NCBI RefSeq assembly: GCF_000368145.1
Contig: NZ_KB849282.1
Span: 525,246-589,028 of the forward strand
DNA: 63,783 nucleotides
Reading direction: 5' to 3'
Origin: Acinetobacter guillouiae CIP 63.46
GTDB lineage: Bacteria; Pseudomonadota; Gammaproteobacteria; Pseudomonadales; Moraxellaceae
Below the pieces are notes generated by a model. The model was not told the DNA's origin. It was given only the letters and a program-made list of their open reading frames with translations, and ran no database searches. A program made the translations under genes and the position numbers. Shown piece after piece: positions 2,787 to 47,188 of this stretch (positions within the stretch are counted from its first letter, which is position 1; the number at the start of each line of letters is the position of its first letter).

Positions 2787-3087
2787 TCTCTTTTCCTTAA
2801 ACATTTTAAATTAATAAGCCTCTCATAGTAGTCTGCTTTTATTCTGTTGAAAAATGACATTTAAACACGTTTACCAATACTCAACTGTATTCACGACTAT
2901 ATCTATATAGCTGTCATAAGCCTTACTGGTTGTTGAATATGTTGATGATGCTTTATCAACAAAAGAACTGTATGGATAAATCCGTGTGCTTAGCCTTTAT
3001 AGAACAATTATTGTTATTTGATTATTTTTTAATCAATCACTTTTGTTCCACGTGAAACAAAAGTGACTTGTACAAGTGGATATTATG

Positions 3088-4155
3088 TTATTGCTTATCC
3101 CAGAATTTACGGAACTCTTTACTCATCTCTATAACGTATTTTTTAGCTTTACGTGAAACAGGGGTTAAGTTAATAAATCCGTGGGTTTGATCTTCATAAT
3201 CCTGATAATGAACCTTTACGCCATTTTGACGTAACTTATAAGCATAGATTTTACCTTCATCATGCAAAAGATCATGTCCAGCCGTTACTACAAATGCAGG
3301 AGCAAGTTTCTTTAACTGCCCATTGGTCGGTGAAATGATTGGATCATCCAATGCCATATTAAAACGTGTTGCATAATAGTCGGTCACATAATCAATATCT
3401 GAGCCTGTCAACACCAAGCCATCTTTATAAGCAAAGAAAGATGGATGTCGACTCTTAAAATCAACAGCAGGATAAATCAAGAACTGGGCTTGAGGTGCAA
3501 ACACTGTATTGACTGTGCGTTGTGCAACAACAGCGCTAATATTTCCGCCCGCGCTATCTCCTGCAACCGCAATACGATTTTTGAGAATTTTAAATTGACG
3601 GCGATTTTGATACACCCAAGCCAAAGCATCTTCACAAGATTGAATTAAGTCACGTGGGCCAACCTCAGGTGCGAGTGGATATTCAATACTTAAAACCTGA
3701 ACTTTTGCATGAGCAGCAATTAAGCGACACACTTCATCATGGGTGTCTACACTACCTACCACAAAACCACCGCCATGATAAAATACAATCATTGGCAATT
3801 TTTTATTTGGTGCAGGATGGTAATGGCGTGCATAGACGCTGCCACTTTGTAGCGGAAGACGAATATCTTCAACAAATTGGATATGGGTCGGTTTGTTTAT
3901 AATAGATTGCATTTGTGATTCAAATTGCTTTCTAGAGCGCTCTACATCTGCGCCAATAAAACCCACTTTGCCCTGTTTAAGTTGAGCTGCCATCAAACAT
4001 TTGGTGAAACTATCCAATTGAGGAAACTGGTACGGGTAACCCAATAACTTGGTTAATGACTCTTGAGCGAATGTAGGCAAACGATCTAAAGCCCTACCTG
4101 CCGAACCCTGCCCTTTTTCGACTAAATCATGAATACTACGTTGAAAAGCAACCAT
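3088..4155 (-). CDS. Alpha/beta hydrolase, HSL (hormone-sensitive lipase) type esterase
   Basis: A 355-aa carboxylesterase/lipase-like protein. The HSL-family oxyanion motif HGGG is at residues 127-130 and the nucleophile motif GDSAGG at 199-204 (Ser201). Asp295 in AGHDLLHDEG and His325 in THGF complete a plausible catalytic triad. There is no signal peptide, so it is probably cytoplasmic. About 90 residues precede the fold, as in many HSL-family cap regions. The start has AAGGA about 9 nt upstream. The substrate cannot be read from the sequence; short acyl esters are typical of the family. It appears monocistronic. Confidence 0.88.
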   Translation of the reverse strand: MVAFQRSIHDLVEKGQGSAGRALDRLPTFAQESLTKLLGYPYQFPQLDSFTKCLMAAQLKQGKVGFIGADVERSRKQFESQMQSIINKPTHIQFVEDIRLPLQSGSVYARHYHPAPNKKLPMIVFYHGGGFVVGSVDTHDEVCRLIAAHAKVQVLSIEYPLAPEVGPRDLIQSCEDALAWVYQNRRQFKILKNRIAVAGDSAGGNISAVVAQRTVNTVFAPQAQFLIYPAVDFKSRHPSFFAYKDGLVLTGSDIDYVTDYYATRFNMALDDPIISPTNGQLKKLAPAFVVTAGHDLLHDEGKIYAYKLRQNGVKVHYQDYEDQTHGFINLTPVSRKAKKYVIEMSKEFRKFWDKQ

Positions 4156-14141: not shown

Positions 14142-14182
14142 TTTGAATTTAAAAATGTTTTTTATCAATTGCATGTGGATAA
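14142..14182. promoter_or_regulatory. DnaA box with an adjacent oriC-type 12-mer
   Basis: TTTGAATTTAAA (14142-14153), identical to the repeated motif at oriC and at 43.9-44.3 kb, is followed 20 nt later by TGTGGATAA (14174-14182), a perfect DnaA box on the minus strand. A degenerate box-like TTACCCACA lies at about 14301. A regulatory or titration role is possible. Confidence 0.45.
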
Positions 14183-20724: not shown

Positions 20725-22116
20725 TTAACTTTGTAACAGGCGCATGAGGTTTTTATAATCCTCATTAAAAATTGGATCTTCATCGCGTAAACTTTGCACT
20801 TTTTCACAGGCATGCATGACCGTACTGTGGTCACGACCGCCAAAAGCCATCCCAATTTCAGGGAAACTGTCTCCAGTAAGCTCACGCGCAAGACCCATCG
20901 CCAACTGACGTGGTCGTGCGTAAATACGTGTGCGTTTTGGCCCCACCAACTCTTTCAATGGTATACGGAAGTATTCGCTCACTACGCGTTGAATATTTTC
21001 AGTACTGATGGTACGGGCACGAATCGCCAAAACATCTTTCAATGATTCACGAACCACTTCTAGATCAATTGCAGCCCCCTTAAAGCGTGAGATTGCCACA
21101 ACTTTGTTTAAAGCGCCTTCAAGCTCTCGCACATTGGCAACAACCTGTTGTGCAATAAATAAAGCGCAATTTCGAGGCAGATCGATGCCACTGCTTTCGG
21201 CTTTTTTCAGCAAAATTTCGATTCGTGTTTCAATATCTGGTGGTTCAACCCCAACCGATAATCCCCATGAAAAGCGCGAGACTAAACGCGGATCCAATTC
21301 GGTTAATTCTTTTGGATAACGGTCAGAGGTTAAAATAATTTGTTTAGATTCATCCAATAAAGCATTGAATGTATAGAAAAATTCAACAAGACTGGCTTCT
21401 TTACCCGCCAACAAATGAATATCATCAACCAACAATAAATCTAAAGAACGGCAATTCTTTTTAAATTCTTCAACCTTGCCTTTTTGCAGAGAGCTGACAA
21501 AGTCTTGGACAAAGCTTTCCGCAGTCATATACATCACACGCGCATTTGGCTTTGCTTGTAATAATGCATTACCAACGGCTTGCATTAAATGCGTTTTACC
21601 TAAGCCTGTAGGGCCGTATAAAAAGAGTGGATTATGTTGAGATTCACCCAGTTGTGTTAAAACTTTGCGGCAAGTTTCAGCCGCCATTTGGTTTGAACGA
21701 CCTTCAACAAATAAAGCAAAGTTAAATAATGGGTTAAGTTGTCGTTTCTTCACATTTTTTGCAGAAACAACTTCATATTCTTTGTCTTTTTTGGCTTTGA
21801 AATGCTGTGTAGGCATTGGAGAACTTTCAAGCGCTGCCGTTGTGGTAGCAGGCTGTTCAGCAGCAGAAAGAATTGCACCAGGACGCGAGTCGACTAAAAT
21901 TTCGACTTTACGAATACGACCTTCAGATAATTGTTCTGCCAAAATAGAAATCAGTTCTAAATGATGTTCTTGAATGTAGCGAGTCCAATATGGATTGGGT
22001 GCATACAGTTTTAAAGTATCTTCGACTTCTTCTGCAACCAAAGGACGAATCCACATGGCAAAGACATTATCAGAGAGCTCTTGTCGCAAGCGAGTTAAGC
22101 AGTCCGTCCAAAGCAT
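20725..22116 (-). CDS. dnaA: Chromosomal replication initiator DnaA
   Basis: A 463-aa AAA+ initiator that binds DnaA boxes and melts oriC. Domain I starts LWTDCLTRLRQELSDN; a variable linker (about 90-125) follows; domain III has Walker A GPTGLGKT and Walker B LLLVDDIHLL; domain IV carries the DNA-binding signature GRDHSTVMHACEKV. The start at 22116 is supported by AAGGGG 6-7 nt upstream. An in-frame ATG 5 codons earlier would put that ribosome-binding site inside the gene. The leader holds a GC-rich hairpin whose arm is exactly complementary to the ribosome-binding site, a possible translational switch. Confidence 0.98.
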   Translation of the reverse strand: MLWTDCLTRLRQELSDNVFAMWIRPLVAEEVEDTLKLYAPNPYWTRYIQEHHLELISILAEQLSEGRIRKVEILVDSRPGAILSAAEQPATTTAALESSPMPTQHFKAKKDKEYEVVSAKNVKKRQLNPLFNFALFVEGRSNQMAAETCRKVLTQLGESQHNPLFLYGPTGLGKTHLMQAVGNALLQAKPNARVMYMTAESFVQDFVSSLQKGKVEEFKKNCRSLDLLLVDDIHLLAGKEASLVEFFYTFNALLDESKQIILTSDRYPKELTELDPRLVSRFSWGLSVGVEPPDIETRIEILLKKAESSGIDLPRNCALFIAQQVVANVRELEGALNKVVAISRFKGAAIDLEVVRESLKDVLAIRARTISTENIQRVVSEYFRIPLKELVGPKRTRIYARPRQLAMGLARELTGDSFPEIGMAFGGRDHSTVMHACEKVQSLRDEDPIFNEDYKNLMRLLQS

Positions 22117-22159
22117 GTGAAACCCCTTCATTCAATTTTAAATTCAAAAAAGACTATTT

Positions 22160-22184
22160 ACCCCTACCCTGTAGGTGAAGGGGT
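22160..22184 (-). promoter_or_regulatory. dnaA leader hairpin with anti-ribosome-binding-site arm
   Basis: In the dnaA message the segment ACCCCTTCA (22184-22176) can pair locally with GGGTAGGGGT just downstream, or with TGAAGGGGT over the dnaA ribosome-binding site (22130-22122). The second match is 9 of 9 bases. The two pairings exclude each other. Seen directly; regulation is inferred. Confidence 0.45.
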
Positions 22185-22189
22185 CGCCA

Positions 22190-22600
22190 TTCTAACCAAG
22201 TTATCCACATCTGTCATGGTTAATTCAATCTAATTCGCTCAAAAAAGCAACCTTCTGTAAATAAATTCAAATTCAAAGCAGTTGTGGATAAGGTTTTCCA
22301 CAAGCTGTGGATAAATTATCACAGAAAGTTATCCACAATCCATCAAATTAATAGAAACATGGATACTCACAGGGTAAGTTATTATTATTTATCTTAAAAA
22401 AGCGGTTTTCCACAGAAAAAATGCTCCCTAATAATAATAAATATAAATTTTAAATTTGAATTTATTTATAAGGATCAGGATTTCTGTGGATAAAGCTTCA
22501 GTTATGAATTTAAATTCAAAACAACACGATTTTTAAATTTAAAATTGAGAAATTAAATTTAAATTGTGAATCAGCCTATGGATAACTTTGAGGATATATC
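22190..22600. other. oriC: Chromosomal replication origin oriC
   Basis: Intergenic region between dnaA and rpmH with a dense DnaA-box cluster. Perfect TTATCCACA boxes are at 22201-22209(+), 22283-22291(-), 22306-22314(-), 22329-22337(+) and 22485-22493(-). Near-matches TTTTCCACA are at 22294-22302 and 22406-22414, and TATGGATAA at 22577-22585. AT-rich blocks that could be the unwinding element lie at about 22432-22475 and 22500-22570. The exact 12-mer TTTAAATTCAAA occurs at 22137-22148 and 22509-22520, the latter inside the palindrome GAATTTAAATTC. Position, box density and flanking genes all fit oriC of the Pseudomonas/Acinetobacter type. Confidence 0.93.
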
Positions 22601-22741
22601 TGTGTGTAACTCTTATTTGCATTATAAAAGAATAAGTTATGCTGTGAATATATATTTTTGATAATTTATTCAATTTAATCTATATAAAGTTGTTGTCTGG
22701 GTAAAAATAAAGCGTCTATATAAAAGAAATGTGTATATTTA

Positions 22742-22770
22742 TTGACAGAATAAAGAATGCACAATACAAT
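22742..22770 (+). promoter_or_regulatory. Promoter of the rpmH operon
   Basis: Consensus -35 TTGACA (22742-22747), 17-bp spacer and -10 TACAAT (22765-22770), 38 nt before the rpmH start. It probably drives rpmH-rnpA-yidD-yidC. Confidence 0.85.
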
Positions 22771-22808
22771 CGCGAACCTTTAGAAAAGATCAATTTTGGA
22801 GTTTCGAT

Positions 22809-22943
22809 ATGAAACGTACATTCCAACCATCTGAATTAAAGCGCAAGCGTGTTCATGGTTTCCGTGCTCGTATGGCTACTAAGGCTGGTCGTCAAGTATT
22901 AGCTCGCCGTCGTGCAAAAGGCCGTCATAGTTTAACTGTTTAA
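22809..22943 (+). CDS. rpmH: 50S ribosomal protein L34
   Basis: A 44-aa, very basic ribosomal protein of the large subunit. The sequence starts [17 protein letters not shown] and ends KGRHSLTV, as in other gammaproteobacteria. TTGGAG lies about 8 nt before the ATG. First gene of the rpmH-rnpA-yidD-yidC series, next to oriC. It is highly expressed, and its consensus promoter agrees with that. Confidence 0.98.
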
Positions 22944-22976
22944 TTTTTTAGACAGTTGATAGACGACTTGGGTGTT

Positions 22977-42085: not shown

Positions 42086-42598
42086 ATGAATGCGGCCGCT
42101 GTACAAGACGCTCCTCTCGTTGGAATTATTATGGGTTCTCAATCAGACTGGGCAACTCTCGAAAACACTGCCAATATGCTGAAACAGCTTGGTGTTCCTT
42201 TTGAAGCCGAAGTAGTTTCTGCGCATCGTACGCCAGACCGCTTATTTGAATATGCTGAAACAGCACGTGAACGTGGTATTCAGGTGATTATTGCTGGTGC
42301 TGGTGGTGCAGCACATTTACCAGGAATGTGCGCAGCAAAAACAGATTTGCCTGTGCTGGGTGTTCCTGTGAAATCTTCAATTTTAAATGGCGTTGATTCA
42401 TTGTTGTCTATTGTACAAATGCCTGCAGGTATTGCAGTTGGCACATTGGCAATTGGCCCTGCGGGTGCAACCAATGCCGCAATCATGGCCGCTCAAATTT
42501 TAGGTTTAACTCGCCCTGAAATCGCAAAAAATGTTGCAGATTTCCGTGCCGCTCAAACCGATAAAGTGGCAAGTAAAAATATTCCGGGTCAAGCTTAA
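42086..42598 (+). CDS. purE: N5-carboxyaminoimidazole ribonucleotide mutase
   Basis: A 170-aa enzyme of purine biosynthesis that moves the carboxyl group of N5-CAIR to give CAIR. Signature blocks are IIMGSQSDW near the N-terminus, [11 protein letters not shown] with the catalytic His, and [11 protein letters not shown]. Class I PurE length plus a short tail. It is 16 nt upstream of purK, whose product makes its substrate. Confidence 0.97.
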
Positions 42599-42614
42599 AA
42601 ACGGGACACAGGTT

Positions 42615-43736
42615 ATGAATAAAACCATCGGTATCTTTGGTGGTGGTCAACTCGGCCGTATGATGGCGCAAGCTGCGCTCCCATTAAATATCCAATGCAC
42701 ATTTTTTGAAGCTGATGCGGATTGCCCATCTGCAATATTGGGACACGTTTTTAGCACCAAAGCTGAAAATGGGTTACAAGATTTTATTGCTAGTGCAGAT
42801 GTTTTTAGTCTGGAATTTGAAAATACGCCATTGATTGATGTTGATGTATTAACCAAGCAAAAAGATCTGTATCCGCCACGCCAAGCTTTAGCAATCGCAC
42901 AACATCGCCTTTCTGAAAAAGCTTTATTTGATGAGCTGGAAATTCCTGTTGCGCCGTATAAAGCAGTCGATTCATTGGAGACGCTTAAGCTTGCAGTGAG
43001 TGAATTAGGCTTACCGATCGTACTTAAAACTGCGACAGGTGGTTATGATGGTAAAGGTCAATTTGTACTGCGTTCAGTCGATCAAATTGATCAGGCATGG
43101 GCTGAGTTGGGGCCAGCAGGATCATTAATCGCTGAAAGTTTTGTGATTTTTTCTCGTGAAGTGTCAATTATTGCGGTGCGTGGTATTGATGGTGATGTAA
43201 AAACTTGGCCTTTGGCTGAAAATCATCATCACAATGGTATTCTCTCGCATTCAATAGTTCCTGCTCCAAACAGTGCTGATTTACAGCCCGTTGCGCAGGA
43301 ATACATCACCCGTTTGTTAAATCATTTGAACTATGTTGGTGTGTTAACACTTGAATTGTTTGTGACTGAAAAAGGCTTATATGCCAATGAGATGGCACCA
43401 CGTGTGCATAACTCTGGGCATTGGTCAATTGAAGGCGCAGTATGTTCGCAATTTGAAAATCACATTCGCGCAGTGGCAGGTTTACCACTCGGTTCAACCG
43501 AAGTGGTTCGGCCAACAGTGATGGTAAATATCATCGGGCAACACCCTAAATCCGAAGATGTTTTAGCGTTAAAAGGTGCACATTTACACCTTTATAATAA
43601 AACAGAACGTGAAGGTCGTAAAATTGGTCATATCACCCTGATGCCAAATGATGCTGCTGAATTAACGACTTTATGTCGTCAATTGGCGAAGATTTTACCG
43701 AATCCATTGTCATTAAGCGAAGATATGAACATTTAA
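42615..43736 (+). CDS. purK: N5-carboxyaminoimidazole ribonucleotide synthase
   Basis: A 373-aa ATP-grasp enzyme that carboxylates AIR. N-terminus KTIGIFGGGQLGRMMAQAA; central ATP-grasp with KTATGGYDGKGQ; active-site end NEMAPRVHNSGHW. The ATG at 42615, after an AGG, fits the conserved start; the frame extends 28 codons upstream into purE. It forms an operon with purE and is followed by a terminator. Confidence 0.97.
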   Translation: MNKTIGIFGGGQLGRMMAQAALPLNIQCTFFEADADCPSAILGHVFSTKAENGLQDFIASADVFSLEFENTPLIDVDVLTKQKDLYPPRQALAIAQHRLSEKALFDELEIPVAPYKAVDSLETLKLAVSELGLPIVLKTATGGYDGKGQFVLRSVDQIDQAWAELGPAGSLIAESFVIFSREVSIIAVRGIDGDVKTWPLAENHHHNGILSHSIVPAPNSADLQPVAQEYITRLLNHLNYVGVLTLELFVTEKGLYANEMAPRVHNSGHWSIEGAVCSQFENHIRAVAGLPLGSTEVVRPTVMVNIIGQHPKSEDVLALKGAHLHLYNKTEREGRKIGHITLMPNDAAELTTLCRQLAKILPNPLSLSEDMNI

Positions 43737-43919: not shown

Positions 43920-44430
43920 CTATTTTTAAATTCAAAATTAGACTTTAAAGGGTTTAGAACATTTGAATTCAAAAGTATTAACAGCAAAACCCAAAAAGTT
44001 ATCCACTTTGAATTTAAATTAACTTGAGGGTATTTTTTGAATTTAAAACTTTAAATTTAAACTTTTGCTTGCTCGAAGTGAAAATAACGACTGTGGATAA
44101 GTTTTGACTCACCAATCCAAAATCCAAATTGTGGATAAAAATAAACACTTAAGCGAGTTTTGATGGGATTGAGTGGAATTTTAAATTTAAATCTAAGGTT
44201 GCTAAAATAATGATGTTTTTGAATTCAAATTTGTGTGAAAGTTTTGAATTTAAAAAATGATAAGTTTACTGGGGTGTGGGTAACTATATTTAAATTCAAA
44301 ACAGTGAACTGGGAATTATGAATTTAAAATCAAACAATGAATTCAAAATTTACGTTTTTACATCTGTCATTTTATTCACAGACTGCTATGGTATTCACAT
44401 AATTTAAATTTAAAACCATTTTGTGGATAT
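43920..44430. other. Second DnaA-box cluster with oriC-type 12-mers
   Basis: A 500-nt AT-rich stretch before the transglycosylase gene. Perfect DnaA boxes are at 44092-44100(-) and 44130-44138(-). One-mismatch boxes are TTATCCACT 43999-44007(+), TGTGGGTAA 44275-44283(-) and TGTGGATAT 44422-44430(-). The 12-mer TTTGAATTTAAA or its complement occurs exactly at 43925-43936, 44007-44018, 44036-44047, 44243-44254 and 44289-44300, with several near copies. The same exact 12-mer is at oriC (twice) and at 14142. No open frame of note. It could be a DnaA-titration or reactivation site, or a regulatory region for the next gene. Confidence 0.7.
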
Positions 44431-44431
44431 T

Positions 44432-45721
44432 ATGCGTCATTTAACTTTGATTTGTGGATCTGTTTTGTTGGCAGCATCGCATGCCAATGCTGAATTAATC
44501 ATTAACGGTCAGGCTGTATCTAGCTCACCAATCACAACAACACCGAATACAAGCTATACACCCAATTCTAATTTTCAAAGCTGTATTGCAAATTTACGTT
44601 CGCAAGCGATCAGTTCAGGTGTTAGTGGCACAACCTTTGATCGTTATACGCAAAATCTAACGCCTGATTATTCGGTCATCAGCAAACTGGATTATCAACC
44701 TGAGTTTTCAACACCGATTTGGGATTATCTTTCAGGTTTGGTCGATGAAGAGCGGGTAGAGAAAGGCCGTCAAATGCTGGCTCAGCATCGTGAAGTTTTA
44801 AACCGTGTCTCAGCGGCGTACGGTGTTCCAGCAGAAACGGTTGTTGCTGTTTGGGGTGTGGAAAGTAATTTTGGTGACATTTCAGGAAAATATCCTTTAT
44901 TGCAAGCGTTGGGAACTTTAAGTTGTGAAGGGCGTCGACAAAGTTATTTTCGAGGTGAATTCTTTGCCACAATGCGTATTTTACAGCGAGGTGATTTACG
45001 CGAAGAACAGTTAAAAGGTTCATGGGCAGGGGCATTTGGTCATACTCAATTTATGCCTTCAACGTATGAAGAGTTGGCCGTAGATTTTGATGGTGATGGT
45101 CGACGTGACTTGGTTTCAAGTACTTCGGATGCTTTGGCATCAACAGCAAATTTTTTGAAAAAACGTGGCTGGCAAACGGGAATGCCGTGGGGCTTTGAAG
45201 TAAAAATTCCAGCTGGTGCCTCTGTAGGTGGAGAAAGTCGTCGTAATAAAAAATCGTTGAGCACTTGGGTAAATCGTGGTTTTACTCGTGTTGATGGTAC
45301 TCCAATCATTCAAGGCAATTTATCGGAAGGCGCTCAGGCCGGTTTAATGATGCCTGCGGGTGCAAATGGTCCAGCATTCTTGGTGTTTAAAAACTTTGAT
45401 GCAATTTATTCGTACAATGCTGCGGAAAGTTATGCACTGGCAATTGCACATTTGTCTGATCGTTTACAAGGCAAGGGCGGTTTTCAAACCGCATGGCCAA
45501 CTGACGATGCAGGAACATCTCGTACAGAACGCCGAGAAATTCAAAATTACTTATTGAAAAAAGGCTATGCGATTGGCGATGCAGATGGTTTGATTGGCGA
45601 TAAAACGCGTCAGGCTATTCAGCAAGAGCAAGTGAAGTTAGGGTTGAGCCCAACAGGTCGAGCAGGGCAACAGATTTTAAAAGCTTTTAGAAATGAAGCG
45701 GCAAAGAATATGATGCAATAA
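44432..45721 (+). CDS. Lytic murein transglycosylase (MltB-type with peptidoglycan-binding domain)
   Basis: A 429-aa periplasmic enzyme that cleaves glycan strands to give 1,6-anhydro ends. Signal peptide ending SHANA. The catalytic domain (about 40-340) has VWGVESNFGDISG, where Glu is the acid/base, and AGAFGHTQFMPSTY. The C-terminal PG-binding domain (about 365-425) shows LLKKGYAIGDADGLIGDKTRQA. The layout fits the MltB-like TIGR02283 group. The start is the ATG at 44432; a GTG 3 codons upstream is unlikely. The last one-mismatch DnaA box ends 2 nt before this start. Its product feeds AnmK and Mpl recycling. Confidence 0.92.
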   Translation: MRHLTLICGSVLLAASHANAELIINGQAVSSSPITTTPNTSYTPNSNFQSCIANLRSQAISSGVSGTTFDRYTQNLTPDYSVISKLDYQPEFSTPIWDYLSGLVDEERVEKGRQMLAQHREVLNRVSAAYGVPAETVVAVWGVESNFGDISGKYPLLQALGTLSCEGRRQSYFRGEFFATMRILQRGDLREEQLKGSWAGAFGHTQFMPSTYEELAVDFDGDGRRDLVSSTSDALASTANFLKKRGWQTGMPWGFEVKIPAGASVGGESRRNKKSLSTWVNRGFTRVDGTPIIQGNLSEGAQAGLMMPAGANGPAFLVFKNFDAIYSYNAAESYALAIAHLSDRLQGKGGFQTAWPTDDAGTSRTERREIQNYLLKKGYAIGDADGLIGDKTRQAIQQEQVKLGLSPTGRAGQQILKAFRNEAAKNMMQ

Positions 45722-46267: not shown

Positions 46268-47188
46268 TTATCGTTGTCTTGAGTTTAGCATGGCTAAATC
46301 CGCTGTGGTTAATCTAAAATTTTTCAAATCTTGTTCTTTCATCATTGGGTACATAAGTGCTTTAGGATCATTATTGTGTGCTAAGCCCAAAGCATGCCCA
46401 AGTTCATGTGCAATCGTGACACGCAAGTCTGCATCCGAAGCAAATTCATAGATATTAATGGTTTTACCATCGAATACGCCTTTATCAAATTGGTGTGGTT
46501 GGAAACGGCTATTAAAGTGATCCACAGATTGATTGTATTGTTGATTGACAGCGTTGAGCTGTCCAACTTGACGGTTTAATTCATAGACTTTTTGATTATA
46601 AATATCTAACTGTTGTTTGAGTTGATTCTGCTCGATAATCAGTTGATTTTTCTGCTGATCTAACTGCAATCTTGCTGTGGCATCTAAATTTTGATGGGAT
46701 TGATTAAGGGTGTTGATCAACTGATTATACTGGTCAACTTTACTTTGATAATTGGTTTTTTGCAGATCCAATTCATCATTGGTACGATCTAATTCAGCGT
46801 GAAGTTGCTGAATTTTTTGTTTTTCACTTTGTGTATATTGTTGAGTATTTTGCAAAATACGCAACTCTTGGTTTCTGGCGCTAGATTCCGCTTGGCGTTC
46901 ATCATAAATTAAGTTAATCGTCAGTTTGGCATGATCATCATAAACAAAGAGACTTTTCATGGTTCCTAAATGCCAAATATCGGTAGCTTGTTGTGCCAAA
47001 TTTTGTACTTGCTGTTTACTGACATGAAAACGCGGATCTATTTCGCCAATACGATAACGTAAACGGGTATCTAAAGGATGCGTGATACGATCAATGGCAG
47101 AATTATGATTCAATTGCGGATACATCATGCGTTGTATCGCAAAATAAGCAGTAAAGGCAATTACACAGAGTAGAATCCAAAAACGCAT
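46268..47188 (-). CDS. Membrane-anchored matrixin-like metalloprotease
   Basis: A 306-aa protein. An N-terminal membrane anchor (about 3-20) is followed by a Gln-rich coiled coil (about 97-225) and a C-terminal zinc-protease region. The zinc motif HELGHALGLAH is at residues 261-271, with a matching Met-turn ALMYPMM at 277-283, the metzincin pattern of matrixins. The catalytic core before the zinc motif is unusually short, since the coiled coil starts at residue 97; the fold may be split around it. The location would be periplasmic. The substrate is unknown. Confidence 0.82.
   Translation of the reverse strand: MRFWILLCVIAFTAYFAIQRMMYPQLNHNSAIDRITHPLDTRLRYRIGEIDPRFHVSKQQVQNLAQQATDIWHLGTMKSLFVYDDHAKLTINLIYDERQAESSARNQELRILQNTQQYTQSEKQKIQQLHAELDRTNDELDLQKTNYQSKVDQYNQLINTLNQSHQNLDATARLQLDQQKNQLIIEQNQLKQQLDIYNQKVYELNRQVGQLNAVNQQYNQSVDHFNSRFQPHQFDKGVFDGKTINIYEFASDADLRVTIAHELGHALGLAHNNDPKALMYPMMKEQDLKNFRLTTADLAMLNSRQR

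Follow-up and report, generated by a model that had tools for sequence, protein, structure and literature searches.

Caulobacter CcrM is a solitary methyltransferase tied to the replication cycle, with targets spread over the genome. For many lineages of bacteria without Dam and SeqA, how initiation is confined to once per cycle is, to our knowledge, an open question. In Escherichia coli, datA, DARS1 and DARS2 are non-coding, origin-proximal clusters of DnaA boxes outside oriC that include an IHF site and promote hydrolysis of DnaA-ATP or the exchange of DnaA-ADP. In that chromosome such boxes are enriched near oriC (PMC12371093). The Dam/SeqA system of the same organism, which sequesters oriC and dnaA, is built on an orphan adenine methyltransferase, the sites of which crowd at oriC and upstream of dnaA (PMC13201069). 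Dam is absent from Acinetobacter, and motifs related to the one discussed here are partly methylated in all A. baumannii strains studied (PMC10287943).

Among the closest described systems is that of the A. baumannii orphan adenine methyltransferase AamA, with the proposed target TTTRAATTYAAA, derived from the methylomes of strain ATCC 17978 and its aamA mutant (PMC10483419). Two runs detected 59 and 41 methylated motif adenines, with none in the mutant, and the marks are densest in two regions: "region 1", with 29 and 28 methylated sites in the two runs, and "region 2", containing dnaA and rnpA, with 9 in each (PMC10483419). The mutant grows slowly, forms filaments in one medium and has lower drug resistance, while dnaA, rnpA and pitA are raised 1.5-2.4-fold (PMC10483419). 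Complementation restored the 1.6-fold change of a gene named mltA, but left growth and the levels of rnpA, dnaA and pitA unrestored (PMC10483419), and for this reason the effect on dnaA may be indirect. In the authors' view, methylation upstream of dnaA agrees with reports that link 6mA to the initiation of replication, and SeqA, DnaA and CcrM hemimethylation are mentioned in general terms; the sites are treated mainly as promoter switches, and neither oriC nor "DnaA box" occurs in the main text (PMC10483419). In the accessible portions of the literature that contains this motif, DnaA boxes beside it are not mentioned. The published record thus already covers the motif, its enzyme and the methylation. 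The link to DnaA boxes at several loci, the conservation of the sites across the genus and their fate in rearranged genomes did not come up in those portions of the AamA literature. Among the titles listed by literature searches, none concerned a DnaA-titration or datA-like site in Acinetobacter, one of the searches being weak as "datA" also matches "data".

The locus considered here lies in a stretch of 63,783 nucleotides from Acinetobacter guillouiae CIP 63.46 (the window), in the gap between purK (42531..43736, + strand; NCBIfam) and a gene for an MltB-type lytic transglycosylase (44432..45721, + strand; NCBIfam TIGR02283, Pfam SLT_2), called mlt here. A preliminary description had reported in this gap a DnaA-box cluster sharing a 12-mer, TTTGAATTTAAA, with oriC. 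Its exact counts hold, namely five copies in the cluster (43925, 44007, 44036, 44243 and 44289), two at oriC (22137 and 22509), one at 14142 and no further copy in the window, giving a total of 8 against a shuffle mean of 0.11, with 0 of 100 shuffles reaching 8. The 12-mer is one form of the degenerate palindrome TTTRAATTYAAA, identical to the AamA target of A. baumannii ATCC 17978 (PMC10483419), so that the full repeat had been undercounted: the gap contains 10 exact matches of 12 bp each between 43925 and 44414, starting at 43925, 43962, 44007, 44036, 44050, 44180, 44218, 44243, 44289 and 44403. In addition, a near site, TATGAATTTAAA (44317..44328, + strand), corresponds to the motif VI subtype, for which partial methylation is tabulated in A. 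baumannii (PMC10483419). The earlier suggestion that the 12-mer serves an unidentified origin protein or as an unwinding element gives way, on present evidence, to this identification with the published AamA target, and it is still possible that a reader protein recognises the methylated or hemimethylated site.

Two perfect DnaA boxes, TTATCCACA, stand in tandem on the minus strand, 38 bp apart, at 44092..44100, between two sub-arrays of AamA sites, and at 44130..44138. They had been counted correctly, but the one-mismatch boxes number four rather than three: TTATCCACT at 43999..44007 (+ strand), one at 44275..44283 (- strand), TTATTCACA at 44372..44380 (+ strand), which overlaps the best-scoring promoter-like site, and one at 44422..44430 (- strand), directly 5' of the mlt start codon. 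The box at 43999 and the 12-mer at 44007-44018 are adjacent as described, though rather than merely abutting they share one base.

The density of sites in this gap far exceeds expectation. In the window, TTTRAATTYAAA occurs 14 times (10 in the array, three at oriC and one at the left site), and 100 shuffles of the gap gave a mean of 0.02 against the 10 observed. Genome-wide there are 54 copies in 4.9 Mb (16 contigs), 10 of which fall inside the 490-bp array, and 26 copies of a reversed-pattern control; the sites are therefore not evenly spread round the genome, many single ones lying elsewhere nonetheless. Dinucleotide shuffles rule out plain A+T richness as the cause. Among 60 permuted palindromes, 54 score 0 and five others score above zero, at 18-229 against 723 for the target; these five appear to share all-A/T forms with it. 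An RNA element was also considered and rejected, the two Rfam matches being at chance level (E 0.68 and 0.86) and far under gathering scores.

With two perfect and four one-mismatch boxes, the array resembles datA, DARS1 and DARS2 as a non-coding, origin-proximal cluster outside oriC, and differs from them in its location, in the ten methylation sites woven into it and in lacking an IHF-like site. The IHF consensus is WATCAANNNNTTR, and no such site occurs on either strand of 43920-44440 or in 22131-22956. Kinship with datA and DARS is unproven, the DnaA binding being putative and read from box sequences. AamA in turn differs from Dam in recognising a 12-bp target that occurs some tens of times per genome, as against GATC, in falling outside the Dam subfamily and in having no known SeqA-like reader here; from CcrM, a likewise solitary enzyme tied to the replication cycle, it differs in motif and in the latter's genome-wide targets. 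The published "region 1" is probably the A. baumannii counterpart of this array, since the arrays of A. pittii and A. nosocomialis carry 14 and 15 sites, which on two strands would make 28-30 methylated positions. The published mltA may likewise be the MltB-type gene called mlt here.

The array is widespread among relatives. At least four AamA sites lie upstream of mlt in 74 of 81 stretches, each no longer than 700 bp, from the window and 80 loci, which are the best 80 of 559 relatives and not a random sample; for one of these, L005, the upstream sequence amounts to just 442 bp. Arrays contain 4-15 sites with a mean of 9.8, compared with 0.025 in shuffles of the 81 upstream stretches, in which the largest count was 2. 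Perfect DnaA boxes follow suit, with at least one in 71 and at least two in 59 of the 74 arrays, a mean of 2.0 against 0.007 in shuffles; the three arrays without a perfect box within 700 bp are those of L066, L068 and L075. No AamA site was found upstream of mlt in 6 of the 81 loci (L074 and L076-L080). The type strain of A. baylyi (L143) has an array of 10 sites together with 2 perfect boxes. Across the 80 loci, the final 800 bp ahead of mlt account for 715 sites and the other 661 kb for 17, 10 of the 17 being the displaced array of L054. In array-bearing genomes (16 of the 22 counted, hand-chosen with divergence judged by protein identity), the array holds 149 of 390 genome-wide sites. An AamA site lies within 45 nt of the mlt start in 53 of 73 arrays, and a conserved promoter-like block just 5' of mlt has AamA sites on either side. 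In 19 species with both genes on one contig, hand-chosen in the same manner, the distance between the starts of mlt and dnaA is 18.5-67 kb, with a median of 23.7 kb.

Alignment between species shows sites and boxes being kept while spacers drift. Over 69 species pairs, 60-96% identical and from hand-picked species groups, identity is 95-99% at the ten fixed motif positions and 87% at the R and Y positions, where most swaps are R/R (G/A) or Y/Y (C/T); these motif identities are upper estimates as the aligner may favour motif-on-motif pairing. In the same pairs, DnaA boxes are 94.5% identical against 73% for spacers, and 1295 of 1546 sites remain exact in the partner species. Retention of fixed positions along with R/Y exchange is what selection on the methyltransferase site itself would be expected to produce, and that this is an AamA-site array conserved by selection seems to us very nearly certain. 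The preliminary description is borne out as regards a DnaA-box cluster outside the origin and tied to oriC by a common motif; the cluster is kept in most of the genus loci examined. The arrangement also extends to a second genus of the family (g10). There the array of G174, ~14 kb from dnaA in the order purE-purK-array-mlt, comprises 6 sites and 2 boxes, and that of G160, in the order purE-purK-array, comprises 8 sites and 2 boxes.

At oriC of the window, one AamA site (22137..22148) lies 6-17 nt upstream of the start codon of dnaA (20725..22131, - strand; NCBIfam TIGR00362), and two more are found at 22509-22520 and 22532-22543, accompanied by five perfect DnaA boxes (22201, 22283, 22306, 22329 and 22485; 22201..22493 overall). 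Each of the 30 species examined carries between 1 and 7 AamA sites in the 750 bp upstream of dnaA, and in 22 of them a site lies 0-45 nt upstream of the start of the dnaA match. The sites often occupy slots ~123 bp apart, near 20, 140, 265 and 388 nt upstream of dnaA (L109-L138), with the greatest regularity in A. pittii and A. nosocomialis. As oriC sites are present even in species without the mlt-side array, the link with oriC may predate the present place of the array.

Coupling of sites to boxes recurs elsewhere. In the A. guillouiae genome, 16 of 50 listed AamA sites (of 54 in all, set against 71 of 87 boxes, on contigs C2-C7) have a perfect box no more than 300 bp away, compared with ~0.5 expected, and sites and perfect boxes coincide at four loci: oriC, the array, a gyrB-side site and, on another contig, a gap beside serC. 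The gyrB-side, or left, site of the window pairs an AamA site at 14142-14153 with a perfect box at 14174-14182. Among 18 hand-chosen species, AamA sites occur on the gyrB side in 7, with all 13 sites within 100 bp of a perfect box; the module is missing in the remaining 11, one of which (L170) has a perfect box there and no AamA site. Modules in the gap between gyrB and an ABC-F gene were observed at 14142-14182 of the window, in L169, L171-L174, L176 and L177, and beside purE in L180. None of 20 lone AamA sites from A. baylyi, A. gerneri and A. apis is accompanied by a perfect box in the surrounding 2-3 kb.

In the serC gap (G000:C7:17689-17979; L140 1490-1780; L185), AamA sites and perfect boxes lie between a gene of 329 aa and serC, and in A. 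gerneri (L182 1207-1500) the gap of the same 329-aa gene/serC pair contains 2 sites and 3 boxes. The two large flanking genes converge, and in both species a conserved ORF of ~50 aa, starting MKIIPEQSTSLI and including a hydrophobic stretch, lies downstream of the module, between it and serC (L140 1954-2106; L182 1662-1817). Given the small ORF, an argument against a promoter role for this module does not hold. The module is a candidate DARS- or datA-like site away from oriC, or else a candidate promoter region of the small ORF.

The A. guillouiae genome encodes two D12-class methyltransferases. One, of 434 aa (G000:C8:46238-47539; PF02086), lies between ribD and a riboflavin synthase-like gene; it matches the Pfam D12 family and no NCBIfam model at 0.001, Dam included, and phmmer at the same threshold found no relative among solved structures. 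The other matches TIGR00571 dam and adjoins a phage-tail-like gene (L081 1393-2250; G000:C6:202123-202797). Being core and outside a prophage, the 434-aa enzyme is taken as the AamA orthologue; nrdR and holC are named among the neighbours of the three enzymes of the published study (PMC10483419). AamA is present in 117 of 119 genomes of the genus, the present one included, as well as in 22 of 22 chosen genomes, with identities of 85-99% save for two others at 78 and 81%. Natural loss in the two exceptions (G030 and G115) was considered and set aside, as both also lack a good ribD match and an assembly gap is likelier. While horizontal acquisition of aamA has been proposed (PMC10483419), the gene is found here in nearly all genomes of the genus that were searched. 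At family level, AamA matches at E 1e-20 were found in 54 of 149 genomes and 7 of 16 genera; every same-genus genome among the rows listed has a match, the 75 rows outside the listing all being non-matches. Identity is 83% in four g10 genomes, the second genus, and more distant versions with 31-58% identity are found in five further genera.

Rearranged genomes separate the array from its neighbours. In A. puyangensis, mlt has neither an array nor purEK in the preceding 4 kb. Its purEK genes lie on the opposite side of oriC, after gyrB, with an array just before purE, ~7 kb from dnaA, in which 5 AamA sites are interleaved with 4 perfect boxes, all 5 sites lying within 100 bp of one. This genome rules out a link between array and mlt in all species. 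A link to purEK is not excluded by A. puyangensis alone, because purE adjoins the array there and purK elsewhere; such a link is disfavoured by the modules found on the gyrB side in other species. G119, G122 and G123 (L151-L153) retain one site and one box in the purE-side gap. In L054 (Acinetobacter genomosp. 15BJ), the array adjoins purK and is separated from mlt by a transposase-like ORF (2880-3905), IS30-like by eye. A. apis has AamA and oriC sites, yet no array beside mlt or purK. In L079 (G124), for which 878 bp before mlt are available, the purK contig ends inside purK, so that the gap there cannot be judged.

On this evidence we lean, if only slightly, towards the array binding DnaA and serving initiation control, wired to AamA methylation, in the manner of E. 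coli datA combined with Dam/SeqA though with different components. AamA would maintain methylation of the RAATTY palindromes at the origin, immediately 5' of dnaA and within the array. Upon initiation and fork passage, oriC and then the array ~22 kb away would become hemimethylated and doubled in number, hemimethylation after fork passage presumably being the signal, by analogy with Dam/SeqA. The hemimethylated state may alter a binder at the array, be it DnaA, a nucleoid protein or another reader, and the array would then capture or inactivate DnaA, helping to block re-initiation until methylation by AamA is back in place. Any influence on the transglycosylase promoter would be secondary. The main reason for preferring a role in replication over one at the mlt promoter is that the array can exist near oriC without mlt. 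In favour we also count the identity of the motif with the AamA target, unmethylated in the aamA mutant, and the rise of dnaA, rnpA and pitA in that mutant (PMC10483419), together with perfect boxes in 71 of 74 arrays, motif and box conservation, site-box coupling at the four loci, on the gyrB side and in A. puyangensis, oriC sites in 30 of 30 species and AamA in 117 of 119 genomes. Against it we count the 6 of 81 loci without sites and 3 of 74 arrays without a perfect box, A. apis without an array despite AamA and oriC sites, the gyrB-side module missing in 11 of 18 species, the absence of an IHF-like site, unlike datA and DARS, the fact that aamA is not essential, and the failure of complementation with aamA to restore growth or the levels of rnpA, dnaA and pitA (PMC10483419). 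The 53 of 73 arrays with a site close to the mlt start and the serC-gap module, which may be a promoter element of the small ORF, also weigh against it.

These last two points are the strength of a promoter switch, in which AamA methylation flanking the mlt promoter alters binding of RNA polymerase or a regulator and DnaA boxes link expression to the cell cycle, without control of replication. The flanked promoter-like block is consistent with such a switch, as is the complemented change of mltA (PMC10483419), which may concern a gene other than this MltB-type one. On the other hand, 10-15 sites over ~500 bp seem more than a switch needs, the A. puyangensis array stands beside purE while its mlt has none, the L054 array is parted from mlt (in one genome only), and site-plus-box modules occur on the gyrB side too. 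We therefore judge the switch unlikely, if a serious contender; the small ORF by the serC gap raised its grade and lowered those of the favoured reading and of its bolder extension below. A dense array of long repeated palindromes in the origin region, with mlt 18-67 kb from dnaA in 19 species and the array present in a second genus, could alternatively organise or segregate the origin domain, a structural protein with a SeqA-, MukB- or ParB-like role reading the methylated array and the DnaA boxes being secondary. The coupling of modules to DnaA boxes, the lack of a named candidate reader and the absence of strict helical phasing (mean resultant 0.12 for a 10.5-bp period and 0.19 for one of 10 bp, which is unconvincing) render this improbable. 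A back-up or secondary replication origin, in which DnaA boxes adjoin easily melted A+T-rich repeats as they do at oriC, is scarcely credible, as the repeats match a methylation target with conserved fixed positions and the array has two perfect boxes against five at oriC.

Extending the favoured reading of DnaA binding and initiation control, we propose, tentatively and with clearly less than even confidence, that in Acinetobacter, and in one or more other genera of the family, initiation control has been built independently of Dam/SeqA. AamA would be a core methyltransferase with only tens of genomic sites, the conserved targets of which are modules of DnaA boxes: oriC itself, an array ~20 kb from it and one or two loci besides. 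Hemimethylated after fork passage, the array would act as a replication timer read by a protein. If so, a near-invariant methyltransferase with few sites and the tuning of initiation in Acinetobacter would be one system, and the slow growth, filaments and lower drug resistance of the aamA mutant (PMC10483419) could reflect disturbed initiation.

Three further observations concern other parts of the genome. A region of six AamA-type palindromes in 26 kb (G000:C4:1519235-1544902), four of them all-A/T and none accompanied by listed DnaA boxes, is possibly an A+T-rich island. Two ORFs after the transglycosylase gene, a Pfam Peptidase_M10 (matrixin) match is found at 46268-47188 of the window. Finally, in two distant species whose proteins share 54% identity, 3-4 AamA sites fall inside the coding region of an smtA-like gene for a SAM-dependent methyltransferase (L139 1527-1700, that is G000:C3:312526-312699, and L183 1360-1653), and a multi-site region (region 12) is reported beside smtA in A. 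baumannii (PMC10483419).
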